Source: Desulfoscipio gibsoniae DSM 7213 (GTDB lineage: Bacteria; Bacillota; Desulfotomaculia; Desulfotomaculales; Desulfallaceae). From it: a stretch of 64,000 nt of DNA. The first letter of the stretch is position 1. Each line of letters begins with the position of its first letter. Below are positions 9,701-24,564 of this stretch, in pieces. The notes below the pieces were generated by a model. The model worked only from the letters and a program-made list of their open reading frames with translations. It was not told the DNA's origin and made no database searches. Location of the stretch: the NCBI RefSeq assembly GCF_000233715.2, contig NC_021184.1, positions 4,646,001-4,710,000 of the forward strand. The letters are read 5' to 3'. Position numbers and translations under genes: made by a program.

Positions 9701-9930
9701 AAATCGCTTACCGCACTGAGTACCGATTCTATAGGTTTAGTGATCTGTTCTTCAATTTCTTCCGGGCCCACCCCTGTATAACTGGTCATTACCAGCGCAA
9801 CGGGTAATTCCATTTCGGGGTACAAGTCAATGCTCAACTGGGAAAAAGATACCGCCCCCAGCAAGAGCACTATGGTTACACATACCAAAATCAGCATCGG
9901 CCGCTTTATAGAAACATCGGTAATTTTCAT
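6790..9930 (-). CDS. RND multidrug efflux permease (AcrB/HAE1 family)
   Basis: 1046 residues, full length for the family. TM4 has the proton-relay pair in GVGLIVDDAIVVLENIV and TM10 the partner lysine in VGIVVKNAIVLVDYV. The N-terminus (MKITDVSIKRPMLILVCVTIVLLLGAVSF) and two large periplasmic-type loops are typical. It pumps hydrophobic or amphipathic compounds using the proton gradient. It starts 4 bases after the lipoprotein adaptor gene and precedes the EmrA/EmrB-like pair. A TolC-like gene lies about 3 kb further upstream but not in the same transcription unit, so a tripartite pump is possible but not shown. Confidence 0.95.
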   Translation of the reverse strand: MKITDVSIKRPMLILVCVTIVLLLGAVSFSQLSIDLYPEMELPVALVMTSYTGVGPEEIEEQITKPIESVLSAVSDLDTISSTSMTGSSTVMVMLDWGADMDAASLEIREKIDLVRDALPEEADAPVVIKADLSMMPILYLAVNSSDPMQLKQTVDDIIQPRLERVNGVASVYYMGGWEREIQIQADPVKLDGYGLSLNALTAVLGSDNRNVSAGTVREGRNDLLLRVTGEFENLDQIRSVVVGNFGGSPVYLSDVAEVVDGQKEVTQIGRVNGQPGMMLMINKQSGGNTVAAAREVKAELEKLEQELPSVDFQIVMDQSEFIEESISSLAEHAVIGGTLAIFMVLIFLRNFRSTLIISTSIPISIIGAFVLLYFGDMTLNVITLGGLALGVGLIVDDAIVVLENIVRHNEAGLDRVTASRQATDEVGSAVIASSLTVVAVFVPFIFAEGLAAQLFTPMALSISFCILASLAVAITIVPLLASRWLNTSKTGREEQAVSNQEKTRGMQRLYRASERWFNQLDDYYRRLLQVALKRRKLTILAVVAIFVLSLFAIPIVGMEFMPGTDQGYVTIDVKMPKGTSLDETNRVLTDIERVVENRPAIDSVSCLVGSGGSMIEGDSSDKGQVILKLVDQAEREITSDDLANQLSAELKDIPGADINVSAMESGMGTPTAPVEIKIRGDNLDVLAQLGDEVAAVVEQVPGTREVSSSLEEGRPELHVVVNRDRASMYGLSLSEVSSAVRTAIDGTVATRYRVGGEEVDIRVQLHKTNHEFNEFTQSELSGLNLATPAGTLIPLSQVAELNQDQGPNTIDRENQARIVTITSQLAGRDLRSVTQDIERGMADINMPSGYLVEFGGEQEQMAETFGTLGLVLVLAIILVYLVMVAQFESLMYPFVIMFSVPVTLTGVVLSLLISGRTFSVTAFIGVIMLVGIVVKNAIVLVDYVNILRHRGLERNEAILKAGPTRLRPILMTALCTVMAMFPMALGIGEGAESQAPLATVVVGGLLFSTLITLVLVPVVYTLMDDFSNKFSLKLFKRKKHANETA

Positions 9931-9934
9931 ATAA

Positions 9935-11068
9935 TCACTTCACCTGGCTCTTTATTTCCACTTTAGTATCGTCTTTGAGCATGTTTTGGCCGGAAGTAAC
10001 CACTTGTTCTCCCTCTTTAAGTCCCTTGAGAATTTGAATCTTCTTACCGTCACTGGCACCGACGGTAACCTCGCAGGATTTTACCCGGTCTTTGTTAATA
10101 ACCCAAACAATATCTACATCGCCTTTTTTAACAACGGCATCTCTAGGTATCAGCAGCGTTTCAGGCAAAGCATTTTTAATTTGCACTTCGGCAAACATAC
10201 CGGGCTTAAGGGTTTGCTGGGAATTATTTATCTGCACTTTAATGGGGTAGGCCTTGCTGGTGGGATCGGCTGCCAGAGCTATTTTGGCAATCACCCCTGT
10301 AAATGGTTTATTGGAAACCGCGCTTATGGTCACCGGCACTTCCTGACCACGCTTGATTTTATTAATCAGGCTCTCAGTTACAGTGGTTTCGACCTCCACC
10401 TTGGACAGGTTAACGACAGTCACTACGGGTACTTGAGAGGCGGAACTGGCCAATTCGCCGGGGTTGACGTTAACGGCAGTTACCACACCGCTAATCGGCG
10501 ATTTAATTACCGAGTTATTATTTTGCTCTTGGTATCTTTCCCTGGCCAGAGCCACGGCAGCCCGGGCAGCAGCCAGCGCCGCGGGGGCCGTCTCCTCATA
10601 ATTCACTTTGGCTTGCTTATAGGGTATTTCATAGGCAGTTTCAAAACCCGCCTGGCCTGCCTCGGGTATGGCCCCCGATTCATACAGCTGTTTACCCCGC
10701 TCATAATTGGCGGCAGCCTGTTCATAATTAATCCGAGCTACTTCCAAACTTGATTGGGCCTGGGCCACACCTTCCTCGGCCTGGTTTATCGCCGCTGCCA
10801 GGGAAGCTTTAGAAGTATTCTCCAGGGTAATTAATGTTTGTCCTTGACTGACCTGGCTGCCCACTTCAACATTAACCGCCAATACCTTGCCGCCCTGCCC
10901 GCTGGGTACGACATCCGAAGTCGCCAGAGCCTTCAACTTACCGGTGACCACGGTAATATCATTAAGCACACCTTTTTCCACCCTGGTTGCTTCAATGGGA
11001 ATGACGGTTTCTTTCTCGCCGGTTTGCTGGCTCTCTTTGCCGCAACCGGCAAGAGTTAACATAATCAA
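9935..11068 (-). CDS. RND efflux periplasmic-adaptor lipoprotein (HlyD_D23/AcrA type)
   Basis: At least 377 residues. A lipobox LTLAGCGKE near the N-terminus suggests a lipid anchor. Domain order: lipoyl half (VEVGSQVSQGQTLITLENTS), a helical hairpin of about 90 residues (AAAINQAEEGVAQAQSSLEVARINYEQAAANYERG), second lipoyl half (IKSPISGVVTAVNVNPGELAS), beta-barrel, membrane-proximal domain (PETLLIPRDAVVKKGDVDIVWVI). It partners the RND permease 4 bases downstream. The visible frame starts at a TTG at 11068, giving a signal peptide too short to be likely. Upstream in frame the sequence reads IKRKALFIVVGWLIMLTLAGC with no ATG/GTG/TTG; a GGGGAGG lies 9 bases before the ATT of that segment, so an ATT start near 11104 is likely. 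Confidence 0.88.
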   Translation of the reverse strand: MIMLTLAGCGKESQQTGEKETVIPIEATRVEKGVLNDITVVTGKLKALATSDVVPSGQGGKVLAVNVEVGSQVSQGQTLITLENTSKASLAAAINQAEEGVAQAQSSLEVARINYEQAAANYERGKQLYESGAIPEAGQAGFETAYEIPYKQAKVNYEETAPAALAAARAAVALARERYQEQNNNSVIKSPISGVVTAVNVNPGELASSASQVPVVTVVNLSKVEVETTVTESLINKIKRGQEVPVTISAVSNKPFTGVIAKIALAADPTSKAYPIKVQINNSQQTLKPGMFAEVQIKNALPETLLIPRDAVVKKGDVDIVWVINKDRVKSCEVTVGASDGKKIQILKGLKEGEQVVTSGQNMLKDDTKVEIKSQVK

Positions 11069-11157
11069 CCAACCAACTACAATAAATAATGCCTTGCGTT
11101 TAATAACGAACGACCTCCCCTAAAATTCAGTAAATCATTCAAAAAGCTCAGTTTTAC

Positions 11158-11643
11158 TTACTTTGGTTTAATTGCACATTCCTCCTCTTGTCTCATAAGA
11201 GCAATTATTTTTTCATATATACTGATTATATGTAACAGATCCCTCTCGTCCAAGTGTCCCAGGTAACGCTGCATGACCCGTAATCTAACGTCCTCGCAAA
11301 CATCAACCACCTCCTGCCCCGCGTTTGTTAATGTCAACCATACTACACGACGGTCTTTCTCCGAACGGCTGCGCGCCACCATCCCCGTTTTGCACAGCCG
11401 GTCCACCTGGGCGGTAACAGCACTCAGGGACACGTTTAAGTCGTCGGCCACATTGGACACCGTTGCCCGGCCACGATCGCCGATTATTTTCATCATCATA
11501 AACTGGTGGCCGGTTATCTTGTCGGTTATTTTATTACCTAAATTAACAATAATTTCTTGATGAAGCCGGCGCAAAAAAAGCTGTGCCATCTCATCCAGAC
11601 GGTCACAGTAACGGGTAAAAACATCCAAGGTCATAGTAGTCAT
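11158..11643 (-). CDS. MarR-family transcriptional regulator of the efflux operon
   Basis: 161 residues. A central winged helix-turn-helix (MMMKIIGDRGRATVSNVADDLNVSLSAVTAQVDRLCKTGMVARSRSEKDRRVVWLTLTNAG) is the MarR DNA-binding domain, the wing being SEKDRRVVWLTLT. MarR proteins are dimeric repressors, often released by the compounds that the neighbouring pump exports. It is the first gene after a near-consensus sigma-A promoter (11709-11737) and 89 bases before the adaptor gene, which fits autoregulation of marR and the RND/Emr efflux genes. Its operator was not identified. Confidence 0.92.
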   Translation of the reverse strand: MTTMTLDVFTRYCDRLDEMAQLFLRRLHQEIIVNLGNKITDKITGHQFMMMKIIGDRGRATVSNVADDLNVSLSAVTAQVDRLCKTGMVARSRSEKDRRVVWLTLTNAGQEVVDVCEDVRLRVMQRYLGHLDERDLLHIISIYEKIIALMRQEEECAIKPK

Positions 11644-11825: not shown

Positions 11826-12083
11826 TTAATAGTGACCTCTGCAACTAGCTATATAAATATTGTCATTATCAATACTATATATTAGTCGATGAACATCAGT
11901 AATACGGCGACTCCAATATCCGGATAATTCATTTTTCAGTGGCTCCGGCTTGCCCAATCCTTCATTTCCATTTCTATCAATATCTCGTAATAGCTCATTG
12001 ACTTTCTTTAATATTTTTTTGTCCTCTGATTGCCAATACAAGTAATGCTGCCATGCTACATCCGAAAAGATTTTATTCATCAA
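11826..12083 (-). CDS. yoeB: YoeB toxin (RelE-superfamily mRNA endoribonuclease)
   Basis: 85 residues, the usual YoeB length. It has KPEPLKNELSGYWSRRITDVHRLIYSI and the C-terminal CRGHY with the terminal His-Tyr pair of YoeB; the conserved Glu (NELSG) and Arg (RRITDVHR) of the active site are present. YoeB binds the ribosome and cleaves mRNA at the A site when its antitoxin is degraded. The start overlaps the antitoxin gene by 11 bases, as is usual for coupled translation. All recognisable catalytic residues are intact, so the toxin is probably functional. Confidence 0.95.
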   Translation of the reverse strand: MMNKIFSDVAWQHYLYWQSEDKKILKKVNELLRDIDRNGNEGLGKPEPLKNELSGYWSRRITDVHRLIYSIDNDNIYIASCRGHY

Positions 12084-12327
12084 GCAATTCTCTTTTCTTT
12101 CCCTTGCCTTTTTTTAATTGCTCTATAGACTGTAAAAGTTCGTTATAGTATTTTGGATTACTTCTCACATAGAGATTTTCTAAAAGGTTATTATACTCTG
12201 CTTCGGATAGCATAACTACATTCTCGCCACGTTCACGAGTAATAATAATTGTTTCAAAATCGTTTACAGCCTTGTCACAATATTTTTTAAAATTTTGCCT
12301 TACAGACGAATAGCTTGTTGCTATCAT
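12073..12327 (-). CDS. yefM: YefM antitoxin (Phd/YefM family)
   Basis: 84 residues. The N-terminal DNA-binding and dimerisation fold is recognisable (ATSYSSVRQNFKKYCDKAVNDFETIIITRERGENVVMLSEAEYNNLLENLYV) and the charged C-terminus (KKGKGKKRELLDE) is the toxin-neutralising tail. It represses its own operon, more tightly with YoeB. A good ribosome site (GAGGTGAT) precedes the ATG. The operator 12346-12369 lies just upstream. First gene of a two-gene operon inserted between the efflux and surface-protein regions. Confidence 0.95.
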   Translation of the reverse strand: MIATSYSSVRQNFKKYCDKAVNDFETIIITRERGENVVMLSEAEYNNLLENLYVRSNPKYYNELLQSIEQLKKGKGKKRELLDE

Positions 12328-12498: not shown

Positions 12499-14211
12499 TT
12501 AAAATGGTACGAATATCAGATTAACCGGCAAATACGAGCCCGCGGGCGGGATAAACTCCAGCACTTTTTCTTTACCCGGCTCAAGGATGCCGATCAGGGC
12601 AAATTCCGTCTGGGGCTTCATGATTCCTTTATTGGGCAGGTAGAAAGCTTTTCCATCCCACTTACCGGCCCCGGCAAACACACCGCCCCGCGGGGAGAAT
12701 ATTACCCCCACCCGCTCCTTGGAATGCATGGTTATTTTGTAAATAACACCGTAGTTACCGGAGTTGTTGCTTTGCCGGGGGTAATTGCCCATCAGACTGG
12801 TATTGGTATCCTGACCGATCAAGAACCCGTCCTCACTACCGTCTGCCACCACCAACCGGACAGGTTCTTGACCGTCCAACTGGACTGACAGGGAGCGGTT
12901 AGCCATAGGGAAAGTACCCCGGATATGCACATCGTCCCTGTTGAGGATAACCAGCTGGCTGTAATCTTCAATTTGCTCCTGTGCCCCAACGGAGATTACT
13001 TGGAACGACAAGTCGCCCCGGGCGTCTATATCAAATATACCGTGAACAGCCTCACCGGGCTTTACGATACTATTCTTATCTTCATTAAGAATATATCTTT
13101 GACCCGGCTGCAGCTCTACGAACTTAGCGCTGCCGGCATTAAAGTCCAGGTACCGGTAAGCCGCCGCCCGGCCCACCGCCATAGCCTCACCGGGGCCGGC
13201 AATACCAACTCTTTTAACAACCATAAGTACCGGTTCATCACTCTGGTTAATTACCAGCGGATATATTTTTTTATTTTCCCCGGCACCATTAATATGATGG
13301 TAATACAAGCGAGTTTCGCCGCTTAAAACGTCACTAAATAAAATACCGTCATCCCGCACAACTTCGGGACTATTGCTAATCATCACCTGTAACCTATCCA
13401 TGCTGACAGCGGGACTTACCTGTTCCAAATCCAACACAGAAATATTGGATATATTGCCAAGAGGTTCTCCGGCAATAGGATTATGCAAATTATAGGTAAG
13501 CCGATCCATCTTTACTTCTTCGGTTACTGTGATAATCCTGGTAAAAGGCTCGCTCCAATTACCCTGACTGTCCTTTACCGCTAAGGTAACCGGGTATTCT
13601 CCCGGAGCAAAAAACGCTCTCTCCCGGCCCGTCCACTTTGTTTCAACTATCAGATCTCCGTCGGGGTCATAACTTTTTTCGTTAAAATAGACCGTTTCCC
13701 CCTGGTCCACCGTATCCTTTTCCAATTCAAACTCAGCTACAGGCGGCCGGTTCGGCGGCGGCAGCTGTTTGATGATTATTTCCTTGGTGCCGGGCAAGAA
13801 ATCCACCTGATAATTTAGTTTTTCCACCAAAAAACGCAAGGGAACCAGCGTAATGCCGTTTTCAATGACCGGAGCCCCGGCAATGGTTTGCACTTCACCG
13901 TTCACAACGGCTTTGGCAACACCCGGCTCAAGGCGGATCTCGGTATCATTATGCCGCACGGAAATCTCCCTGGCCTCGGAATCCCAGCCAACCTCCGCCC
14001 CGAAAACTTCCAGCACGAAACGCAGCGGAACCATGGTGGTGTCGTCACTCACCCGGGGGGCCACTTCCAGCTCATAGGGCACACCGTCCACCTGCACCAT
14101 GAGATCATTGACTTTCAAGATGGCGGTTTCAGCCCCGCCTTCCGCCATCGCCGGAGCAGCTGCGGTAAGGAATATGGCAACTAAGATTAAGTAGGTTATG
14201 TACCTGCGCAT
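12499..14211 (-). CDS. Secreted stalk-domain (copper amine oxidase N-terminal type) protein with PKD-like domain
   Basis: 570 residues with a signal peptide (about 1-23, cleavage after APAMA). Residues about 33-147 are a tandem stalk domain: VQVDGVPYELEVAPRVSDDTTMVPLRFVLEVFGAEVGWDSEAREISV then ENGITLVPLRFLVEKLNYQVDFLPGTKEIII. Residues about 153-230 resemble a PKD domain (YDPDGDLIVETKWTGRERAFFAPGEYPVTLAVKDSQGNWSEP). The remaining 340 residues are beta-rich and I do not recognise them. Such proteins are common on the surface of Peptococcaceae; a role in the cell envelope is inferred, and no enzymatic function should be assumed. A good GGGAGG site precedes the ATG. A weak ECF-like promoter lies at 14244-14272. 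Confidence 0.85.
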   Translation of the reverse strand: MRRYITYLILVAIFLTAAAPAMAEGGAETAILKVNDLMVQVDGVPYELEVAPRVSDDTTMVPLRFVLEVFGAEVGWDSEAREISVRHNDTEIRLEPGVAKAVVNGEVQTIAGAPVIENGITLVPLRFLVEKLNYQVDFLPGTKEIIIKQLPPPNRPPVAEFELEKDTVDQGETVYFNEKSYDPDGDLIVETKWTGRERAFFAPGEYPVTLAVKDSQGNWSEPFTRIITVTEEVKMDRLTYNLHNPIAGEPLGNISNISVLDLEQVSPAVSMDRLQVMISNSPEVVRDDGILFSDVLSGETRLYYHHINGAGENKKIYPLVINQSDEPVLMVVKRVGIAGPGEAMAVGRAAAYRYLDFNAGSAKFVELQPGQRYILNEDKNSIVKPGEAVHGIFDIDARGDLSFQVISVGAQEQIEDYSQLVILNRDDVHIRGTFPMANRSLSVQLDGQEPVRLVVADGSEDGFLIGQDTNTSLMGNYPRQSNNSGNYGVIYKITMHSKERVGVIFSPRGGVFAGAGKWDGKAFYLPNKGIMKPQTEFALIGILEPGKEKVLEFIPPAGSYLPVNLIFVPF

Positions 14212-14243: not shown

Positions 14244-14272
14244 TTAGACGTTACCAGAATTACTTTTGTTCT
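14244..14272 (-). promoter_or_regulatory. Possible weak ECF sigma promoter of the 570-residue stalk protein
   Basis: On the minus strand AGAACAA, 16 bases, GTCTAA: the -10 box and spacing equal those of the three strong ECF promoters at 18.2-18.6 kb, but only the GAAC core of the -35 box is kept. It lies about 33 bases before the start codon of the stalk protein gene. Confidence 0.4.
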
Positions 14273-14399: not shown

Positions 14400-15503
14400 T
14401 TAAATTAATGCTTTGCCGGTAAGGTTCTTGAAATTAGCTATAAGTATAGCATGCTGGTACTTTAACAACTCTAAGTTTGTCTGATAGGATGCCAATTCTG
14501 CTTCTACTGTTTTTATATCCATAGCTGTAGCCATTCCCACATCGTATTTTGCCCTGGCTACCCTTAAAGTTTCTTCCTTCGCCTTTATTGCCGCGTCAAC
14601 TTTATTGTATTGCTCTTCATTAGCCTGTATATCCTTATATAACGTAAAAACAGCATTGCGTACTTCTCTACGCGCATCATCAAGATTATATTTGGCTATA
14701 TCTATATCAAATTTCTCAATGTTATAGGAATTCAGCGCGCCTGAGCCAGGTCCGTAACTAAAATATTTAAGATCCATTTTTTGCAGGCTAACTAATTGCT
14801 CAAGCTTCCATAATGCTTCGCTGCTTGTTTCGGCCCTACTAGCTTCTGTATTGATGTTAGGTACCGTATATTTTTCAAAGTTTATATCATCTTGAAGTAC
14901 CGGCCTGTCTTCAGGCCATAAACCTATCAAACTATTTAATTCTACATAAGCCTTGTCCAGGTTCTCTTTGGCCTCCTGTAAAGCGGCGGCAGAAACTTGT
15001 GCAGTTGACTCTGCACCAACCAGTTCGGGATTGGACAAAATACCAACTTGCGCACTGATTTTAGCCAGGCGCTCGGCCATTTGTTCTTTTTCCAATGCTA
15101 TTTCAGCATATTTAAGGCTTTCCTGGGCAATCAGTATGTTAGCGTATTTTTGATAGGCATCCAATTTAATATTTTTTTCTGCCTCTTGCAATGATTTACT
15201 TTGCGTTAGGTAATTAGTACTGGATTGCATCAACTTCGTAAATGATGACTCTGCTGCTACGTTTACGGCACCGCCACCGCCACTGGGCCTTAAGCTAACA
15301 TCGTCCGCAGCATCTTTTCTAGCTTCCCAGGCTTGGTCTTTGGCCAACTCGCTGCTTTTTAAAACCAGACTATTCTTTACAGCCATATTAATTACATCTT
15401 CCAAAGTTAACTCGGGAGTAGCAGGCTCCTTGGCCAGAGCAGCAGACGCTGTACCCAAAATCATCAACGCTAGAGACAAGAAAATTATGGTTAGTTTTTT
15501 CAC
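14400..15503 (-). CDS. TolC-family (outer-membrane-efflux-like) protein
   Basis: 367 residues from a GTG with a GAGGGTGG ribosome site. Signal peptide about 1-24 (cleavage after ALAKE region). It shows the two alpha-helical OEP repeats: LTLEDVINMAVKNSLVLKSSELAKDQA at the start and FDIDIAKYNLDDARREVRNAVFTLYKDIQANEEQYNKVDAAIKAKEETLRVARAKYDVGMATAMDIKTVEAELASYQTNLELL-type sequence at the end (quoted here as a region, residues about 265-350). The family normally forms outer-membrane channels for RND or MFS pumps, but this is shorter than TolC (about 470) and the organism seems to be a single-membrane spore former. Its function there, perhaps as an envelope-spanning or secreted coiled-coil protein, is unknown. 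It has its own terminator on each side. Confidence 0.8.
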   Translation of the reverse strand: MKKLTIIFLSLALMILGTASAALAKEPATPELTLEDVINMAVKNSLVLKSSELAKDQAWEARKDAADDVSLRPSGGGGAVNVAAESSFTKLMQSSTNYLTQSKSLQEAEKNIKLDAYQKYANILIAQESLKYAEIALEKEQMAERLAKISAQVGILSNPELVGAESTAQVSAAALQEAKENLDKAYVELNSLIGLWPEDRPVLQDDINFEKYTVPNINTEASRAETSSEALWKLEQLVSLQKMDLKYFSYGPGSGALNSYNIEKFDIDIAKYNLDDARREVRNAVFTLYKDIQANEEQYNKVDAAIKAKEETLRVARAKYDVGMATAMDIKTVEAELASYQTNLELLKYQHAILIANFKNLTGKALI

Positions 15504-15620
15504 TTTCCACCACCCTCTAAGAATATTTAAATAAGTTAATTATTTAACAGTTAAATTATAGCTAAATATGCGCAGCTTGTCAATTATAGCAGGCTGCACA
15601 ATTTTTAACATAAGATGTTA

Positions 15621-15652
15621 AAAAAGCCTGGATCCGAGGACCCAGGCTTTTT
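15621..15652 (-). terminator. Strong terminator of the large stalk-protein gene
   Basis: AAAAAGCCTGG / CCAGGCTTTTT, eleven perfect pairs around a 10-base loop, followed on the minus strand by TTTTTTAACA. It is 14 bases after the stop codon of the 758-residue surface protein. Confidence 0.92.
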
Positions 15653-15666
15653 AGGTTATAAGCTAA

Positions 15667-17943
15667 TTAGTTAACTGTGATGGTAGCAGTTTTGGTATTG
15701 TTATCCCATTCTGCAGTTGCACCCAGGGCAACACCTGCCATGGACAGGGATACGAAGGTCCGTCCGTCTTTAATCTCTGCACCTTTGTCGGTGGGGAGGG
15801 CCATGCCGTTTAGCTTGACCTGCGGGTTGCCAACGGTGATCTGTGCAACACGGTCACCTTTCACAAGGGTGGCAGTCTTGGTGCTGTTATCCCATAAGAT
15901 GTTCTGCGGTGCTACGCCCAGAGCGCCGGCGGCATCACGCAGTTGAACCATGATCCGGCCGTCGGAGATGTAGCTGCCGTTGTCACCAAGGGTGATGGTG
16001 GTAACCAGCTTTTGATCAGTCGGTGCCGGGGTTCCTACGGTAGCGGCAATAGTTTTGGCTGCGGTAGAAGTTTCGGGGAACAGTTTATGGTTGCTGTCAA
16101 TGTCAAAGCATTGTTCACCGTCAACCTCTGCATAGCCATCTTTTATAGTATAGGCGTCTTCTACTTCACTTGCATTGTTAACTTCGTTAACAGCGTCACC
16201 TTTAACTTTTACTGTTACATCACCTTCCGGAGCAGTCCGGTCAACGGTTACTTCCAGGTTAGTTAGTTTAATGGTGCTAGCAGTGTTACTATCGTTATCA
16301 ATCTCAACTAGCAGGTCTCTGTCGTCGTTGCCGAGAGTGATGCTACCGGTATCAATCTTCAAATCACCTTCGGTAATCTCAATATCCTTATAATTGGTCC
16401 ACTTGAAACCTGCAGGTAGTTGCAGCAGCAGATCATCATCTTCACTCAGAGCACCAGCCACATTTTCAGTTACAGTCAGATCGCCAATGGGCTGATCGGC
16501 TTTACCAATTGTCAATGACAGTTTTTCAGAAGAGGTGATTGTTACCGGCTCAACTACTTTGGCTACTAACAGTTCTTCAGAAATACCGGCGGTGCCGCCT
16601 ACTTCAATTACCAGGTCACCGGTGGTACCGGGCTCGATAGCAACCTCCATTGCTTCCAAAACTATTTCGGCTGCATCGGTTGAATTGTCTTTAACTATCC
16701 ATTTGGCGGTTTGACCGTCTCTGCCCGGGAAGCCAGCGAATTCCAAACCGGTGTTACTATCGGTATCTTCGTCAACTTTATTCCACTTAAAGTTGGAGGG
16801 CAGGGTCATTGTTACAGTACGGCCTTTAATTAAGCTTTCTTTAATAGATTCTTCAATTGTGATATCTGGAAGTTCTTGTTCCAGCATACCGGCTACTATT
16901 TCAGTAGCTTCACCGGCAGTGATGCTGATTTCGTACTGACCGTATCTGCCGACTATAATTTCAGACTGGCTATAGTCGCTGTCTCCGTCAACCTTGGCTA
17001 TAACATCACCAAGCTTAGCATCGGTTTCGTCATCTACTTCAATCTTAGCCTTGATTTCAAATGCAATAGCTTGTGTGCTTTCATCGAAATCTTTAGACAG
17101 GTCTAAGGTTAATTCATCGTCATCAATCTTCAGAGAATCCTCCAAATAGTCTGCTAAAGCATCGTTGGTGGCATAACCGTCAACTTTGCCCCAGTATACT
17201 TTCACTGATTCCACACTGCTCCAGACAAATCCATCCGGCAGGGTGAACTGTAAGCTTTCATTGGTATCGTCCAAAGAATCGGGTACATCTTCTTCAACAC
17301 GGATGGTCACATCACCGTAATCACTAAAGGTATCCAGATCAGTTACTTCAATATCCACTGCACCGCCGCTTACGCGACCAACGGTAATGTTACCGGATTT
17401 AAAGCCGCTGGTGCTGGGAGCTTTAAGCCTTAAGTCAATATCGCCGTCAAAACCGCCGTCGATCCATACGTTACCGAGATACAGGTAAAGATAGGAATCC
17501 CAGGAATCATTCACGTTACCATCAACGGTTACTTTAATTTCGTTTTCGTCAAGCATATCAATATCAAGGCCTACACCTTTTAAACCGTTTGTGTCACCTT
17601 GGTAACTATCGGGAATCTTGAAATAGTTACCGTTGGTTTCGCCGTACACATCGTCTGAAACTGATTTCCAATCATTATTTACCATAACTTTGTCTTGACC
17701 CTCACCGGCCTTCAAAAATTGAAAGTCTTCCGGCAGGCTGATTGTTACAGTATCACCATCATCCAGCTGACCAGCTGTAAATTCAAAGAATACTGTGCCC
17801 AATGAAGCTCTCGCATCATCATTAACCGATGGAACACTCAGCACTTCAGTATCGGTCGCAAATGCTGTGAACGGGAATATCATGGTGAAAGCAAATACCA
17901 GTGCCATTAAAAGGCAAAACTTTTTGTTACGTGCTTTACGCAA
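15667..17943 (-). CDS. Large acidic secreted surface protein with C-terminal stalk domain (S-layer-like)
   Basis: 758 residues from a TTG start with AAGGAGGG 9 bases before it. Signal peptide about 1-29 (MALVFAFTMIFPFTAFA). The mature protein is very acidic and made of repeated beta-rich units that share the pattern LPxxFxWxxV (SLPEDFQFLKAG, TLPDGFVWSSVE, TLPSNFKWNKVD, QLPAGFKWTNYK), so at least four related modules of about 110-150 residues. Residues about 650-757 are a stalk (Cu_amine_oxidN1) domain: DGRIMVQLRDAAGALGVAPQNILWD and DGRTFVSLSMAGVALGATAEWDNNTKTATITVN. No catalytic site is visible. Two tandem ECF promoters, a long structured leader, a strong ribosome site and a strong terminator suggest an abundant, regulated envelope protein; the S-layer role is inferred. 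Confidence 0.85.
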   Translation of the reverse strand: MRKARNKKFCLLMALVFAFTMIFPFTAFATDTEVLSVPSVNDDARASLGTVFFEFTAGQLDDGDTVTISLPEDFQFLKAGEGQDKVMVNNDWKSVSDDVYGETNGNYFKIPDSYQGDTNGLKGVGLDIDMLDENEIKVTVDGNVNDSWDSYLYLYLGNVWIDGGFDGDIDLRLKAPSTSGFKSGNITVGRVSGGAVDIEVTDLDTFSDYGDVTIRVEEDVPDSLDDTNESLQFTLPDGFVWSSVESVKVYWGKVDGYATNDALADYLEDSLKIDDDELTLDLSKDFDESTQAIAFEIKAKIEVDDETDAKLGDVIAKVDGDSDYSQSEIIVGRYGQYEISITAGEATEIVAGMLEQELPDITIEESIKESLIKGRTVTMTLPSNFKWNKVDEDTDSNTGLEFAGFPGRDGQTAKWIVKDNSTDAAEIVLEAMEVAIEPGTTGDLVIEVGGTAGISEELLVAKVVEPVTITSSEKLSLTIGKADQPIGDLTVTENVAGALSEDDDLLLQLPAGFKWTNYKDIEITEGDLKIDTGSITLGNDDRDLLVEIDNDSNTASTIKLTNLEVTVDRTAPEGDVTVKVKGDAVNEVNNASEVEDAYTIKDGYAEVDGEQCFDIDSNHKLFPETSTAAKTIAATVGTPAPTDQKLVTTITLGDNGSYISDGRIMVQLRDAAGALGVAPQNILWDNSTKTATLVKGDRVAQITVGNPQVKLNGMALPTDKGAEIKDGRTFVSLSMAGVALGATAEWDNNTKTATITVN

Positions 17944-18198
17944 AACTAATTTCCCTCCTTAAAATGTTTATTTGGCCCTTCCGGCCTAAAAAGATGAAAC
18001 CCTTAGCTTTAGTTTCACATCCCCCCTTGGATAGGTTCTAGTTAATTTATTAACTGGTTTCTATAGAGAAGCGGCTCAACCGCTAACTCACTAATTGGTA
18101 GGCTTACAAATTAGGCACATGGACTATTATATCTCCATCGTTAAAATCCTGCAAGAATGTTACATATTCCTTCATCTGCTTGTCTTTGCATCCAGCTC
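17944..18198 (-). promoter_or_regulatory. Long structured 5' leader of the large stalk-protein mRNA
   Basis: From the nearer ECF promoter the mRNA would carry about 255 untranslated bases. Four hairpins can be drawn: 18070-18084 (AGCGG/CCGCT), 18040-18055 (AGTTAA/TTAACT), 17993-18021 (GATGAAAC/GTTTC..ATC) and 17971-17990 (TTTGGCC/GGCC.AAA). No known riboswitch consensus is recognised. A role in mRNA stability or translation is inferred. Confidence 0.5.
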
Positions 18199-18204
18199 GT
18201 TTTG

Positions 18205-18233
18205 TTAGACACATGATTGTATGCAAAAGTTCC
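18205..18233 (-). promoter_or_regulatory. ECF sigma promoter P2 of the large stalk-protein gene
   Basis: Minus strand GGAACTT, 16 bases, GTCTAA, identical in both boxes and spacing to the promoter of the ECF sigma gene at 18571-18599 and to P1 at 18315-18343. It matches the RpoE-type ECF consensus GGAACTT-N15/16-GTCTAA. The predicted transcription start is near 18198. Confidence 0.85.
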
Positions 18234-18314
18234 ACCGATTTATAGTTTTTTTTCATTCTGGATTTTTTGCTTCGGAATGGTTGTTTTGGAACGTCTTTGT
18301 TTGCATCCGTTTCT

Positions 18315-18343
18315 TTAGACACAGGGGTTGCTCCAAAAGTTCC
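18315..18343 (-). promoter_or_regulatory. ECF sigma promoter P1 of the large stalk-protein gene
   Basis: Second copy of GGAACTT-N16-GTCTAA on the minus strand, exactly 110 bases upstream of P2. Flanking bases are also alike (TTGCATCC downstream of both -10 boxes; ACA next to TTAGAC), suggesting that P1 and P2 arose by duplication. Confidence 0.85.
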
Positions 18344-18570
18344 GGGTGTGGCAAAAAAATTTCAAATTCTTTTTCCTGCCAGACAGACCAGCGGTATAAT
18401 ACATATGGAAACTTCCTCATATACACGTACTATATTATAATGAAATAACAGGAGATACAGGCAGCAGAAACCTTTGAATTCTTGCTCAAAATACTGTAAA
18501 TTATTTATGTAGTTAACTATTTTATAATGGACTAATATTTATTTTTTTCCAAAAATACAGGCCCGGCCCC
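18344..18570. other. Divergent intergenic region
   Basis: AT-rich stretch between the two stalk-protein promoters and the sigma-factor promoter. A TATAAT-like box occurs at about 18396 but no matching -35 box is evident. No ORF with a ribosome site and no strong hairpin were found. Confidence 0.5.
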
Positions 18571-18599
18571 GGAACTTTTCCCTTTACATATGTGTCTAA
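18571..18599 (+). promoter_or_regulatory. Autoregulatory ECF sigma promoter
   Basis: GGAACTT (18571-18577), 16 bases, GTCTAA (18594-18599) on the plus strand, about 42 bases before the TTG start of the ECF sigma gene. The two promoters facing the opposite way at 18205 and 18315 have the same boxes. Confidence 0.88.
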
Positions 18600-18640: not shown

Positions 18641-19306
18641 TTGGACGATGCAAAGCTCCTGGTAAAGAAGTCCCAAAAGGGCGATGCCAGGGCATTTGAG
18701 CAGCTGGTAATCATGTATCAGGATAGAATTTACGCGCTCTGCTACCAGCTCACCGGCAATTACGCCGATGCCCAGGATCTGGCGCAAAATGTTTTCATAA
18801 AAGCCTACCGGGCTTTGCCCGGGTTCCGCAACGAGGCGGATTTCGGCACCTGGCTGCACCGCATTACGGTGAATCTTTCTATTAATGAAAGACGCAAAAA
18901 GAAACCGGATGTGTATCTTGACAACCCGGTGCAGACAGCGGAGGGCGAAATGCCCCGTCTGCTGGCCTCGGATGCTGAGAGCCCTGAAGAAGCTTATGAA
19001 AACAAGGAATTTCGCGGCATGGTGCAAACCGCACTAAGGGAGTTATCCCCTGAACATAGAGCCGTACTGGTTTTAAGGGAAGTGCAGGGCTATTCATATG
19101 ATGAAATAGCCGATATGCTGAATTGTTCCCTGGGTACGGTAAAGTCCCGTATTAACCGGGGACGTCAATCGTTAAAAGAAAAAATTACCCAACTGGCTGA
19201 CAGATACGGAAGAAAACTTCCTTATAATAAGAAACAACACGGGGGGGTGGGAAAAAATGGACTGCAGCCAAGTAAAACAAATGATACCCCAGTGGTTGGA
19301 CGATGA
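18641..19306 (+). CDS. ECF-subfamily RNA polymerase sigma factor (SigW/RpoE-like)
   Basis: 221 residues from a TTG at 18641, preceded by GAAGGGGGT. Region 2 (about 7-78) reads LVKKSQKGDARAFEQLVIMYQDRIYALCYQLTGNYADAQDLAQNVFIKAYRAL, then FRNEADFGTWLHRITVN; region 4 (about 128-178) reads LSPEHRAVLVLREVQGYSYDEIADMLNCSLGTVKSRINRGRQSLKE. There is no region 1 or 3, which defines the ECF class. It directs polymerase to GGAACTT/GTCTAA promoters, probably including its own. The end overlaps the anti-sigma gene by 50 bases, which suggests translational coupling. The last 25 residues after region 4 are poorly conserved; they are coded in the overlap. Confidence 0.95.
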   Translation: MDDAKLLVKKSQKGDARAFEQLVIMYQDRIYALCYQLTGNYADAQDLAQNVFIKAYRALPGFRNEADFGTWLHRITVNLSINERRKKKPDVYLDNPVQTAEGEMPRLLASDAESPEEAYENKEFRGMVQTALRELSPEHRAVLVLREVQGYSYDEIADMLNCSLGTVKSRINRGRQSLKEKITQLADRYGRKLPYNKKQHGGVGKNGLQPSKTNDTPVVGR

Positions 19307-20330
19307 AATGGAACCCGCGGAAGCTGCCTTAATTGCAGCTCATGTGGAAAACTGCCAGGAATGCCAGGACGAAAAGGCCTTCTGGCAAGTGCTGGGCACT
19401 ACATTGCGGGATGATCTGGGAGACATAAAGGCCCCACCCGGGTTTACCACAGCAGTAATGTCCCAGCTAACTGAACACCGGAGCTCCAGTTGGGGCCGTT
19501 TTATAACTTGCTGGAAGCGCAATTTAGCGGTGGCCGCCACATTTTTGCTGGTGGCAGCGGGTTCCGTCGGTGCTTATATGCAAATGGGCGGCAACATTGC
19601 CTGGCATGTGGCCAGAGGCGACGATACCCGGTCAGGGCATGTGAACCTCAAAGAGCCTAATCCAGATAACAATGTGGGGAAGCCGGGGATTATACCGGTT
19701 GACTCTAATAATAAGATAGATCGTGAGGTTTCAGACAATCTGCCGCCTGACGGTGAAAAAGTGGATAACGATGTGGAGCCAAATAATACTCAGCGGGAAC
19801 CTGCCGGGATCGCCGATAATACACCCAGCACTGCTCAGACCGGGAATAATACGCCGGCTCCAATAGATACCTCAGAGCAGTACGCATTTTTAAACACAGA
19901 ACAAAACCGGGTTATCGATCGAACTTTGGTACGGGTTAAGGTAGAAGACATAAATGCCGCCCACAAGCAAGCTTTGTCTTTTGTCAATAGCTCCGGCGCC
20001 CAGTATGAAGTGCTCGGGTCGGAAAGCGCGCCCGGCGGCGGACAGGAAACTTTGAAGGTAGTGGTTAACAGTAACCTGTCAAGCCAATTGCAGGGAGAAT
20101 TTAAAACCTTGGGGCAGGTCGTTACTACGGATACGCAAAGGGATGATCTGAACAGCAGGTACAACGAAAAGGTTGAACAGTACCGCTCATTACAGGCCCA
20201 AGCGCAAGCTGCCAAAATAGAAGAAGAATTAAAACAACTACAGGTGAAGATGGCCGGCATTGAGGCGCAATTGAGGGCTTGGGACCGGGAAGCCAATACA
20301 GACACTATTATCCTATGGCTGGAAAATTAA
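19257..20330 (+). CDS. Membrane anti-sigma factor: zinc-finger (zf-HC2) head plus extracytoplasmic DUF4349 domain
   Basis: 357 residues. Residues 1-40 are an anti-sigma zinc module with Cys3, His29, Cys33 and Cys36 (H-x3-C-x2-C in AAHVENCQEC). One membrane segment spans about 89-108 (LAVAATFLLVAAGSVGAYM). A Pro/Asn/Asp-rich linker leads to a C-terminal DUF4349 domain (about 205-357) with a coiled-coil stretch (QAQAAKIEEELKQLQVKMAGIEAQLRAWDRE). The cytoplasmic head should hold the sigma factor encoded just upstream and the outer domain should sense the envelope signal, release following regulated proteolysis as in RsiW. Overlap with the sigma gene and shared ECF promoter support the pairing. 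Confidence 0.93.
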   Translation: MDCSQVKQMIPQWLDDEMEPAEAALIAAHVENCQECQDEKAFWQVLGTTLRDDLGDIKAPPGFTTAVMSQLTEHRSSSWGRFITCWKRNLAVAATFLLVAAGSVGAYMQMGGNIAWHVARGDDTRSGHVNLKEPNPDNNVGKPGIIPVDSNNKIDREVSDNLPPDGEKVDNDVEPNNTQREPAGIADNTPSTAQTGNNTPAPIDTSEQYAFLNTEQNRVIDRTLVRVKVEDINAAHKQALSFVNSSGAQYEVLGSESAPGGGQETLKVVVNSNLSSQLQGEFKTLGQVVTTDTQRDDLNSRYNEKVEQYRSLQAQAQAAKIEEELKQLQVKMAGIEAQLRAWDREANTDTIILWLEN

Positions 20331-20375: not shown

Positions 20376-20424
20376 AAAGAAGGGCAATAGCTTTTCCACC
20401 ATAGAAAAGCTATTGCCCTTCTTT
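20376..20424. terminator. Bidirectional terminator shared by convergent genes
   Basis: Perfect 21-pair inverted repeat (AAAGAAGGGCAATAGCTTTTC at 20376-20396 and its complement at 20404-20424) with a 7-base loop. It serves the anti-sigma gene on plus. For the minus-strand subtilase its outer arm is the last coding bases including the TAG stop (20410-20412). Confidence 0.93.
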
Positions 20425-23400
20425 ATTTTCCCGAGTAATTTTATACAGCAAGTGATTAAGAGCCGCCGCTGTTTCGGCCCGGGTGATATAGTCTTTAGGC
20501 GTAAACAGGTTACCTGGTTTACCGGACAGCAATCCCAAGGTCCGGACCTTGCGCACGTCTTCGAGCGCCCAGGCCGAAATGCCCCCCTGGTCATTATATG
20601 GTAACGGTGCCGGGAGCCCTTCCGGAACGCCATTTATGGTATCGTAAATCCGGACCAGCAGTACCGCCGCTTCCTCCCTGGTGATCCGTTCATAAGGGCG
20701 GAAGGTATTATCTTCATAGCCCATGGCCAAATTTCTGCTGTAAGCCAGGGCTACGGCGCTTCGCGCCCAGCGCGGGATGACCTCCGCATCTTTAAATGGC
20801 AGTTTCGTGGTGGAACCGTCACCCCCGATCAGCCTGGTGACCAGGGCAGTGAATTCCACCCGGTTCACTGCCTGGTCGGGCTTAAAAGAGCCGTCCGGGT
20901 ATCCCTTAAGCATTCCCCGGGACACCAGCTGGCGAATATCCACCTCGGCCCAGTGACCGTCAATATCCGAAAAACCTTTTTGCAGGCGCGGCAGGCTCAA
21001 TTGCAAGCCGGTCACTCCGCCGGTATCCCTGTCCACGGCTACCAGACTGATGTTCTCAGCTTCCCCTGCTTTGACCGGGTAGTAAAAATCTCCGGAGTTA
21101 CTAATTTCAACCTCCTGGCGAATTCCGCCAGGATACACGGAATACAGCCGTGAAGCGGTTGTATGGCCGCTAATCAATGAAAAATCCTCAAAGGGTATTG
21201 TAGATAATATTGTAAGTTCAGGGGGCTTGATACCCTGGCGCGTTTGAGCCTCCAGCGTAGCAACAATTTGCTCGCCTGCAGGGCCGTACAAGGGGGTTAC
21301 CTTTACCGGTTCCCCTGGCACAAGGTCCCGTGGCTGTACCGGCCAATTATTTTTGGTAACCACCGAGACATCACTCAGCCGGTAAACCTCTCCGCCGGCT
21401 ATCCTGATACCGCTGCCAGGAACGTATTTTTCCAGGTTTGTGGCAATTTTGTCCGCCGCCTCGGCAACATCTACCCGCCACACTTCCCGGGAAACGGGAT
21501 CGGTAATCACCCGCACCCACTGGCCCGGGGTTAAAATGGAAGTTCCCGCGGCCATCCCCCAGCGGAACACCTGGCTTTCCGGTTCAATTCGCAGGTTTAT
21601 GAACCCCTGGGCATTGTCCATCAGGTAAAGTGTATCCTTCTCGGCATAGATAACCCGACCATAACTTACATCAGAATAAACAGCTAGGTTTAATACCTCG
21701 GTGCTGTTGGGAACCAGATCCAATATGGCCAGTTCTCCTTCTTTTATATCCTCCAACCCGATGCTTTTCTGGTCCCTATCCAGGTTAATACCCGGCATAA
21801 TATGATAGCTGCCGCCGGATGAAAGGTTGATGGTTCTCGAAGCAAGCTGCACAGACACTACCCGACCCACAGCTATATGCCGGTTAACCGCCAGGTGATA
21901 TATCTTACCGTCGGAGCCCAGAGTAATTTGCACCGGCATGCCCGAAAGCAACTTTTCCAGTTCCGCGGTGGTGGAAGCCCCAAAGGGCAGGTCGGCGGTA
22001 TCTCCGTCCACCATGACATCCGAAAAGGAGATGACCGCTTCTTCCGCCAGGACATAGTCTTCCTGCTTATCCAGCAGTTTTAACCGGCGGTTATCCCGGT
22101 CAACGCCGGTAAGTACGCCTGTGATTTCCCGTCCGGTAATGTCGGCGTGCCAGAGCGTCTGCGTGCGGGGGTTGATCCCGGCCGTAACGCCGGCTCCCGG
22201 TGGGATGACCTGTCCTTCTCCCAGAGTGTAACCGCCGATGCTCAGAACGTTCTTTGCACCGGCATCGATGGCGTAACCGCCTTCCCGGTATTCCTGGTTA
22301 ATGCGCACTAGAATTGTCCGGCTATCCTCGACCAATGTCTTGACACCGCTGGCCTGCCAGGTGCGGCCCACCGCGTAGGCGCGTTCGGGTTTATCAGGCA
22401 GCCCCATCAGGTAAAGCTCGGCACCTGCCGGTAGGTTATCATTTGGGGAAAGCAGCCGGTCATCCACAGCGGCAGTGGTATTCTCCGGCAGAGCCAATTG
22501 TTTTTCGCCGGTTAAGGTTACCATACCCTGGTCGCTGCCGGTTATGGTTTCCCTGGCCAGCGGCTGACCATAAACCAGTGCATAGTCCTGGTTTACCCCT
22601 TTGGCAGGGGAAGCGTCCTGTTGAATGGAACTGCCACGCACTATAATTTTATATGTTCCGGGCGCGGGATCGGGTATGTATACCTGTTCTACGTTGTTGC
22701 TGGTATCCCGTGCGCCTTTATAATCGAAATCATTGCCATAATATTTTTTACCGTCCGGACCGATCACTTCCAGGTCCAGGTCGTTGACCAGCGCCGACCG
22801 GGCGCCCGGTGCCGCCGCGGGGTCAGTCCAGGACAGGGTGGCTTTTAAGGGAGCCCCGGGGTGGGTAATTTCCTTTTCGTAGGTTATATTGTCGCCCCCG
22901 GTCAGCCCTGTATTATCGTCCACCGCCTCGTACAGCCCGTTTTGTAGGGCCATGATGGTGCTGCCGATATCCAGCAGGCCGAATCCGGCTGCCGCCGGTT
23001 CCTGCTCCAGTCGCCTGGCGCCGTTGATTAGAGTGGCTTTCATCAGGGCTGCCGACGGGTCGGCATTACCGCCATATTCCTTAAAATACTGGCGCAAGAG
23101 CGCTGCAGCACCTCCGGTCACCGCCGTGGCCATACTTGTGCCCTGCTTAACAGTGTAATCGGGCCTGCCGGCAAGGTTCCCTTTTACCAGCCGGGATGCG
23201 GGAGAGATAACCGATGTGCCGGGGGCGACCAGCTCGGGTTTAATGCGCCCGTCCCCGGTGGGTCCCCGGCTGGAAAAGGATGCCACGTCCCCACTATCCC
23301 CGATGTTGTTTTCAAAGGCAGGCCGGGGGCTTATGGATGCACCCACCACCAGGGCGTTTTTGCTGTTGGCCTCGGCGGTGATACTACCCTCCCGGGCACC

Positions 23401-24564
23401 GGAGTTACCCGCTCCGAAAATCACCAGAAAATCGGGACGGCTGCGCACATATTCATCAACCTGGGCTGTGGTGCTGACATAGGTATTTTGTTTTTTGCCC
23501 CAGCCATTTATATGGATACGCACATTAGCATTATAGGCCGGTTCAAATAGTTCTCGCAGATCCAGAGGTGGCGCGGTGTTTTCATCCTCATCCACAATAC
23601 CCTGAAAGTAGAGGCTGGCCCCGGGGGCAACACCGGTATATTTGCCGTCGGATGCCTTACCGCTACCCACCAGAGTGCCGGCCATGTGGGTGCCATGGCC
23701 GCTGACGTCAGCGGGGGTCTCCACACCGGCCCAGGATTTAAGCATAATTACCCGGGGTTTTTCCCCGGCAGCGCTTTCCAGATCGGGATGGAGGTTGCCC
23801 ATGGAGCCGGTATCAAGCCCGCTGTCGGCCAGGCCGATGGTCTGACCTTCGCCGGTAAGGCCTGTACCGGTGACAAACTTGGGTATGGCCAACGGTCTGG
23901 CTCCCACTATATCTCTGGCCCGGTCGTTCAATAGCTCGGGCTGATTATATTTTTCTATGTACAGTACCCTGGGTGACCCGGCTAGTTGGTCAACCGCGGA
24001 GGCGGGCAGCTCCACCCGCAGATAGCGTCCCTCTCCGCCGGCGCCGTCCAGCACCCGTCCTTCCAGGCTTTCGATTAGTTTTTTTACACTGGCTTTATCA
24101 CCGGATTCCGCAAGGGTTACGGTTACCACCACCGGGGTAGAATCCGGGGTTGAGGCGGCTTTAGCATTTTCACCCCTGGTATCATCCGGGGGATTCCCGA
24201 GATCAGCGGGTATCTTTTGTTCGGGCAAGTAGGGAGCTAAATTTTTAATGTACGGTAACTTTTGCAACGCCTGTCTTTGTTCCGTTCCGGCCCGTACCAG
24301 CAGTGTTTTTCCATCAAGCCTGCCCAGCCAGTCAACCCGGTCTTTTAGCTCGGCTTCCTCGGCACCGGTTAGAGATCTATTCAGCTCCAGGGCAAACATC
24401 GCCAGGTTTTTATCCCGGTCCCCGGCTTCGTTAATATCCCGGTTTTCAGTCCGGTCACCGCGTCTGCTGTTTTTGTCCTGGCTATCTGCACTCTGCCAGG
24501 TCCAAATGCTTATTGCTACAACGAAAAACGCCAAAATTAAAGACCAACGCTTTTTAATATGCAT
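20410..24564 (-). CDS. Cell-surface subtilisin-like serine protease (S8) with three SLH domains
   Basis: 1384 residues. N-terminal membrane anchor or signal (about 8-24), then a propeptide-like region, then an S8 domain with Asp247 (GLADSGLDTG), His290 (SGHGTHMAG), oxyanion Asn387 (GAGNSG) and Ser477 (GTSMA). After a jelly-roll-like segment (LSWTDPAAAPGARSALVNDLDLEV) come about 500 residues of beta-rich repeats. The end has three SLH motifs (FSDIDGHWAEVDIRQLVSRGMLKGYPDGSFKP, FKDAEVIPRWARSAVALAYS, YNDQGGISAWALEDVRKVRT; starts near 1205, 1270, 1335), which bind wall polysaccharide. A surface processing or scavenging protease is inferred. A possible ECF promoter lies at 24798-24825. Confidence 0.94.
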   Translation of the reverse strand: MHIKKRWSLILAFFVVAISIWTWQSADSQDKNSRRGDRTENRDINEAGDRDKNLAMFALELNRSLTGAEEAELKDRVDWLGRLDGKTLLVRAGTEQRQALQKLPYIKNLAPYLPEQKIPADLGNPPDDTRGENAKAASTPDSTPVVVTVTLAESGDKASVKKLIESLEGRVLDGAGGEGRYLRVELPASAVDQLAGSPRVLYIEKYNQPELLNDRARDIVGARPLAIPKFVTGTGLTGEGQTIGLADSGLDTGSMGNLHPDLESAAGEKPRVIMLKSWAGVETPADVSGHGTHMAGTLVGSGKASDGKYTGVAPGASLYFQGIVDEDENTAPPLDLRELFEPAYNANVRIHINGWGKKQNTYVSTTAQVDEYVRSRPDFLVIFGAGNSGAREGSITAEANSKNALVVGASISPRPAFENNIGDSGDVASFSSRGPTGDGRIKPELVAPGTSVISPASRLVKGNLAGRPDYTVKQGTSMATAVTGGAAALLRQYFKEYGGNADPSAALMKATLINGARRLEQEPAAAGFGLLDIGSTIMALQNGLYEAVDDNTGLTGGDNITYEKEITHPGAPLKATLSWTDPAAAPGARSALVNDLDLEVIGPDGKKYYGNDFDYKGARDTSNNVEQVYIPDPAPGTYKIIVRGSSIQQDASPAKGVNQDYALVYGQPLARETITGSDQGMVTLTGEKQLALPENTTAAVDDRLLSPNDNLPAGAELYLMGLPDKPERAYAVGRTWQASGVKTLVEDSRTILVRINQEYREGGYAIDAGAKNVLSIGGYTLGEGQVIPPGAGVTAGINPRTQTLWHADITGREITGVLTGVDRDNRRLKLLDKQEDYVLAEEAVISFSDVMVDGDTADLPFGASTTAELEKLLSGMPVQITLGSDGKIYHLAVNRHIAVGRVVSVQLASRTINLSSGGSYHIMPGINLDRDQKSIGLEDIKEGELAILDLVPNSTEVLNLAVYSDVSYGRVIYAEKDTLYLMDNAQGFINLRIEPESQVFRWGMAAGTSILTPGQWVRVITDPVSREVWRVDVAEAADKIATNLEKYVPGSGIRIAGGEVYRLSDVSVVTKNNWPVQPRDLVPGEPVKVTPLYGPAGEQIVATLEAQTRQGIKPPELTILSTIPFEDFSLISGHTTASRLYSVYPGGIRQEVEISNSGDFYYPVKAGEAENISLVAVDRDTGGVTGLQLSLPRLQKGFSDIDGHWAEVDIRQLVSRGMLKGYPDGSFKPDQAVNRVEFTALVTRLIGGDGSTTKLPFKDAEVIPRWARSAVALAYSRNLAMGYEDNTFRPYERITREEAAVLLVRIYDTINGVPEGLPAPLPYNDQGGISAWALEDVRKVRTLGLLSGKPGNLFTPKDYITRAETAAALNHLLYKITRENKEGQ

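Follow-up and report, generated by a model that had tools for sequence, protein, structure and literature searches.

In Desulfoscipio gibsoniae DSM 7213, the genes for an ECF sigma factor and for a large exported protein diverge from an intergenic region that holds three near-identical copies of one two-box sequence, GGAACTT-N16-GTCTAA. This arrangement raises the questions of whether the three copies are promoters, which sigma factor reads them, and which genes they control. The window (the whole stretch of DNA that was analysed, 64,000 nucleotides) was compared with the complete genome and with related genomes. From these sequence comparisons, the locus is very probably a self-regulating local switch that places a surface protein under an ECF sigma factor, with three promoters, a membrane brake, an element in the mRNA leader, and a tiny regulon. 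The features that make up this putative switch are as follows.

18571..18599, plus strand: putative ECF promoter of the sigma/anti-sigma operon, GGAACTT-N16-GTCTAA (pattern match and conservation)
18315..18343, minus strand: putative distal ECF promoter of the surface-protein gene (pattern match; tandem pair kept in Desulfoscipio/Desulfotruncus relatives)
18205..18233, minus strand: putative proximal ECF promoter of the surface-protein gene (pattern match; the single site of Pelotomaculum-type loci is about as far from the start codon)
18641..19306, plus strand: ECF sigma factor, class A, 221 aa (Sigma70_r2 and r4_2 over Pfam cut-offs)
19257..20330, plus strand: anti-sigma factor, 357 aa (zf-HC2 at residues 3-37, one TM helix at about 90-108, DUF4349-like outer domain at 219-355)
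15667..17943, minus strand: exported surface protein, 758 aa, mature pI about 4, with beta-sandwich domains and a C-terminal Cu_amine_oxidN1 domain

An earlier note on this DNA had reported three copies with identical boxes and spacing, two of them in tandem. All three are exact matches, at 18205 and 18315 on the minus strand and at 18571 on the plus strand; the spacer is 16 in each, and exactly 110 bp separate the two sites on the minus strand, all as claimed. The pattern has no match in 100 dinucleotide shuffles, compared with three in the real sequence. The core common to the three sites is longer than first stated, namely GGAACTTTT-N11-TGTGTCTAA. A search of the intergenic region for Rfam families and riboswitches gave no match.

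The genome-wide search that the note had proposed, made with exact boxes and spacers of 14-18 over the complete 4,855,529-bp genome, returned four matches: the three known sites and one at 1,096,416 (spacer 15), 51 nt upstream of a DUF6847 gene. With up to two mismatches at fixed spacing, six further genomic sites appear, as against 10 for a reversed-pattern control. A wide regulon in this genome is ruled out, because relaxed matches are no more numerous than those of the control. By pattern matching, the regulon here is tiny and consists of these promoters and the DUF6847 gene. An ECF-type site is kept at the same place in 7 of the 16 relatives that have such a gene, and on this evidence the DUF6847 gene is therefore a real but sporadic target.

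Among 29 homologous loci (L035-L063), the motif lies 67-95 nt before the sigma start in all except L048, and most of these loci also have one or two divergent copies. The divergent copies form tandem pairs 91-154 bp apart in the same genus and family, and Pelotomaculum-type loci have a single divergent site at the proximal distance. In an alignment of 52 sites from 20 loci, which includes one chance match (L047), GGAAC and TGTC are invariant but for one base position and the spacer has near-zero information. Across seven relatives, all 41 of 41 box bases are identical, as against 56-79% identity in the remaining intergenic region. Because the boxes are nearly invariant while the surrounding intergenic region diverges (20 loci), the sites are read as conserved promoters. 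Three near-identical copies clustered in a single intergenic region might instead be operator sites of a DNA-binding regulator, but this reading is barely credible given the asymmetric two-box form, the fixed 16-nt spacer, and the identity with the sigma-E/AlgU consensus; moreover, the sites always point to a gene 50-500 nt downstream. The RpoE promoter consensus is GGAACTT (PMC8103513), and that of AlgU is GAACTT-N16/17-TCtgA (PMC10651043). The claim that the boxes give the binding specificity of the adjacent sigma factor therefore holds in that they appear to be its promoters, but the motif is one already known as the E. coli sigma-E/AlgU consensus.

In a pattern search over 150 related genomes, 226 sites were found, compared with 64 for the reversed control. 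Of the 65 genomes that encode a close orthologue of the sigma factor (E <= 1e-78), 63 have the motif, with a mean of 2.9 sites (reversed control, 0.54); of the 85 genomes without one, 26 have it, with a mean of 0.44 (reversed control, 0.34). The co-occurrence of motif and sigma factor has a Fisher p of about 3e-18. The two genomes that have a close orthologue and no exact motif are G020 and G079, the latter with near-matches before both genes. Most of the fetched sites precede a member of the surface-protein family, the sigma/anti-sigma operon, or the gene of a different large exported protein, and most of the family members behind the motif match the family profile with E values of 1e-44 to 1e-235. 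In three loci (L147, L176, and L191), the motif precedes a surface-protein gene although the sigma gene is not adjacent. In L134, L135, L210, L214, and L221, the motif precedes genes for exported proteins of 650-1000 aa with weak or no match to the surface-protein profile; no Pfam domain was found in those of L134 and L135, the two tested. Judged from these comparisons, the wiring from sigma factor to surface protein is kept across a whole bacterial order. Comparative footprinting, co-occurrence, and regulon content thus bear out the proposal of one autoregulatory ECF promoter and two facing the surface-protein gene, and the motif is sharp enough for regulons to be read from sequence.

The class A sigma factor consists of sigma2 and sigma4 domains only, joined by a short linker, as defines the ECF (group IV) sigma factors, and it scores 121.6 bits against TIGR02937 (cut-off 42.9). 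Its nearest solved structures by sequence are SigW, AlgU, and sigma-E, and its -35 contact region resembles those of AlgU and sigma-E. With E. coli sigma-E (RpoE) and Pseudomonas AlgU, the system shares the promoter consensus, an autoregulated operon, a membrane anti-sigma factor, and envelope targets. It differs from them in scoring below the curated RpoE equivalog cut-off (TIGR02939, 147.6 vs 236.15 bits), in its four-site regulon and monoderm host, and in an anti-sigma factor that combines zf-HC2 with a DUF4349-like outer domain and has no RseA/MucA match. Bacillus SigW is the closest solved structure by sequence (5wuq, E 1.2e-40), and the SigW/RsiW system likewise has a zinc-finger anti-sigma factor whose gene overlaps the sigma gene, but the protein studied here falls below the SigW cut-offs (NF007223, 175.5 vs 209 bits; TIGR02948, 173 vs 243.1 bits). 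SigW has TGAAAC-type -35 boxes and a broad regulon. A search of viral contigs for the sigma factor gave distant matches only.

The cognate anti-sigma gene lies directly downstream in the sigma operon and is kept in nearly all orthologous loci. The label of DUF4349 anti-sigma factor given to its product in the note needs qualification: the match to PF14257 (DUF4349) falls below the Pfam cut-off here (E 0.0017; 18.2 bits vs a gathering score of 27.7), DUF4349 is matched in 9 of 15 orthologues (E <= 0.01; best 7.7e-6), and zf-HC2 is present in 15 of 15; the protein is a zf-HC2 anti-sigma factor. The self-amplifying loop proposed under this factor agrees with the anatomy of the locus, a sigma/anti-sigma operon with positive autoregulation, and the conserved motif before the operon is its putative autoregulatory promoter. 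The cytoplasmic zf-HC2 domain of the membrane anti-sigma factor would hold the sigma factor until, as the family suggests, a signal from outside frees it. RNA polymerase with this sigma factor would then read GGAACTT-N16-GTCTAA at three places. The promoter before the operon would provide positive feedback, with the brake made in matching amount, and the two tandem promoters would send transcripts into the adjacent gene for the exported beta-sandwich/PF07833 protein and so raise its output. At 19240-19306, the sigma reading frame is about 15 residues longer at its end than in the orthologues, the extension passing through a G-rich run, and the sigma and anti-sigma frames overlap by 50 nt here as against a few bases in orthologues; either an indel or an error in the sequencing would account for this.

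It is common for ECF operons to be autoregulated and to have adjacent targets, and the usual picture of an ECF sigma factor is that of a stress regulator in charge of a broad regulon. The parts of this circuit are of known kinds, and its motif is the sigma-E/AlgU consensus. Here, one ECF sigma factor appears to serve a single major surface protein, and to do so throughout an order of Clostridia with sulfate-reducing and syntrophic members. The open-licence literature yielded no ECF sigma factor dedicated to a surface-layer-like protein in these bacteria, no switch between paralogues, and no paper that treats DUF4349 or this gene pair in an ECF context. RpoE1/'TolB' of Thermoanaerobacter tengcongensis is likewise a clostridial ECF sigma factor with a cognate membrane anti-sigma factor encoded downstream, and its autoregulation has been reported in vitro; unlike the present system, its anti-sigma factor has another domain build, and no surface-protein target is described there (PMC3397946).

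The note had described the target as S-layer-like. The sole Pfam domain of the 758-aa protein is Cu_amine_oxidN1 (PF07833), at the C terminus, and a search for SLH domains found none. In the predicted structure, beta-sandwich domains follow one another in a chain (mean pLDDT 86.8, pTM 0.51), and the top Foldseek matches of the model are Ig-like domains of the PrgB adhesin, with low TM-scores. Because PF07833 is present and SLH is not, the target is at most a candidate S-layer protein; from sequence and model, 'S-layer-like' is a fair guess, and the location at the surface is predicted. The high abundance and the control by envelope stress or growth phase that the note had proposed are conjectural.

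The mRNA that would arise from the proximal ECF promoter begins with a long leader, whose length is taken as the distance between the start codon and the proximal -10 box.

17944..18200, minus strand: 5' leader of the target mRNA (length in 18 loci about 160-300 nt, in most of them 250-275)
18126..18154, minus strand: candidate sigma-A promoter, TTGCAG-N17-TATAAT, with a weak -35
18018..18028, minus strand: untranslated SD-like element AAGGGGGGATG (STAB-SD-like; 17 of 18 leaders)

A sequence of the AAGG[AG]GG type occurs 80-122 nt before the start codon in these 17 leaders (shuffled mean, 2.2), usually followed by an ATG that is not the start of the protein. In cry3A mRNA, the STAB-SD element is bound by the 30S subunit, with no translation starting there, and acts as a block to RNase J1 (PMC4113751). 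The leader element resembles it in being SD-like, in lying far ahead of the start codon, and in not initiating translation, and differs from it in being deduced from conservation; in this leader of about 250 nt, it probably stabilises the mRNA as STAB-SD does. The fold stability of the leader is not unusual (z 0.23), and the leader has no Rfam match.

The same leader bears on how much of the surface protein the ECF pair accounts for. Of the 18 leaders, 14 keep TA[TG]AAT at a comparable position, which in this genome is part of TTGCAG-N17-TATAAT, and a basal level of expression may come from this putative sigma-A promoter. The gene could even be mainly under housekeeping sigma-A control and so mostly constitutive, with the ECF pair a minor boost; this is less likely, since the -35 is weak, the element is absent in L036-L038 and L054, all of which retain ECF sites, and a conserved tandem ECF pair is hard to explain if its role is minor. 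Control chiefly by the ECF pair is therefore preferred.

A further question is whether the adjacent class A sigma factor is the one that reads the sites. Another sigma factor could do so, because this genome has 39 Sigma70_r4_2 matches over the cut-off and a paralogue, class B, uses the same -35. Class B is encoded at 1,295,176-1,295,780 (L262), and its organization differs: in 17 of 17 examined genomes, no motif precedes the class B sigma gene, and an ECF-type site with C before GTC lies inside the sigma frame near its 3' end, immediately upstream of the point where the anti-sigma frame starts. Such an embedded site, placed to transcribe the anti-sigma gene only, would be a possible negative-feedback design. 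Class B promoters have the GGAACTTTT -35 in common with class A and differ in the base that precedes GTC. In families f3 and f12 (the latter including G064), only class B was found at the scores used, so that the absence of class A there means a score below threshold. The surface-protein genes of these families lack the exact motif and carry class B-type sites of the form GGAAC...CGTC[TA] instead, with 19 sites in ten upstream regions; eight of these regions have at least two, the opposite strand has none, and shuffles give 0.2. In a tree of 44 sigma sequences, A and B separate and the f3/f12 sigma factors group with B (99/96).

At surface-protein sites, GTC is preceded by T in 52 of 53 cases in class A genomes and by C in 21 of 21 in class B-only genomes; the genomes are non-independent samples, and the sites of the two groups were found by patterns of unequal strictness, neither of which fixed that base. 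The single exception is in G127, which has both classes. This split argues against the reading in which another ECF sigma factor, such as class B, is the main user and the adjacent one only one of several; such a reading is improbable, as the T motif also tracks the class A sigma factor across genomes and is carried by the class A genes' own promoters. Reading by the adjacent class A sigma factor is thus favoured. The main sequence difference between A and B, FRNEADFG as against FRGDASFS, falls in region 2.3/2.4. This is where ECF sigma factors read the -10 element, as in the structure of sigma-E domain 2.

Because the base before GTC follows the sigma class, control of the surface-protein gene may have passed between paralogues, with the promoter changing to match; this is the simplest reading, and the chances for and against it seem evenly balanced. 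Class A would read TGTCTAA; without A, class B would have the gene, usually with tandem CGTCTA sites; the specificity loop of sigma-2 differs between the two (FRNEADFG in A, FRGDASFS in B), and one promoter base and this short protein loop together would separate the circuits where both coexist. The T/C switch at one -10 position follows sigma class across 59 genomes, and the comparison of A and B offers a natural experiment on what keeps sigma factors orthogonal and on the way a target moves from one of them to another.

Downstream of the surface-protein gene lies a TolC-like gene with signals of its own.

15619..15652, minus strand: intrinsic terminator after the surface-protein gene (hairpin, -20.6 kcal/mol)
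15555..15583, minus strand: putative sigma-70 promoter of the TolC-like gene, TTGACA-N17-TATAAT (12 of 12 matches)
14400..15503, minus strand: TolC/OEP-family protein (syntenic in most loci; apparently outside the ECF regulon)

The terminator and the sigma-70 promoter separate the two genes, so the TolC-like gene is probably not under the ECF promoters. Its co-transcription from them as the main route is made unlikely by the strength of the terminator and by conservation of the promoter, which matches 10-12 of 12 positions in 14 of 15 loci. The predicted structure of the TolC-like protein has a TolC helical fold (Foldseek E 3e-11) and no membrane beta-strands. The host is presumed to be monoderm, and the diderm alternative is rejected: no Omp85 homologue was found in this genome, and Peptococcaceae are reported to be monoderm, with no outer-membrane markers (PMC5007114). 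The OEP protein Dred_3141 has been detected in the D. reducens surfaceome (PMC4137172).

Several neighbouring genes may also be described. The PKD/Cu_amine_oxidN1 gene at 12499-14211 is preceded by AGAAC-N18-GTCTAA at 14244-14272 on the minus strand, and relatives (L035, L036, and L041) have GGAACAAAA...AGTCA at the same place; the gene may be driven by a different ECF-type promoter. The SLH-domain subtilase at 20410-24564 (minus strand) is convergent with the anti-sigma gene in most loci, and one guess is that it could cut the anti-sigma factor or process the surface protein. An operon of a MarR regulator, an RND adaptor, and an RND pump (6790-11643, minus strand) lies near the TolC-like gene in this presumed monoderm. 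Two small overlapping genes at 11826-12327 (minus strand) resemble a toxin-antitoxin pair of the YefM/YoeB type.
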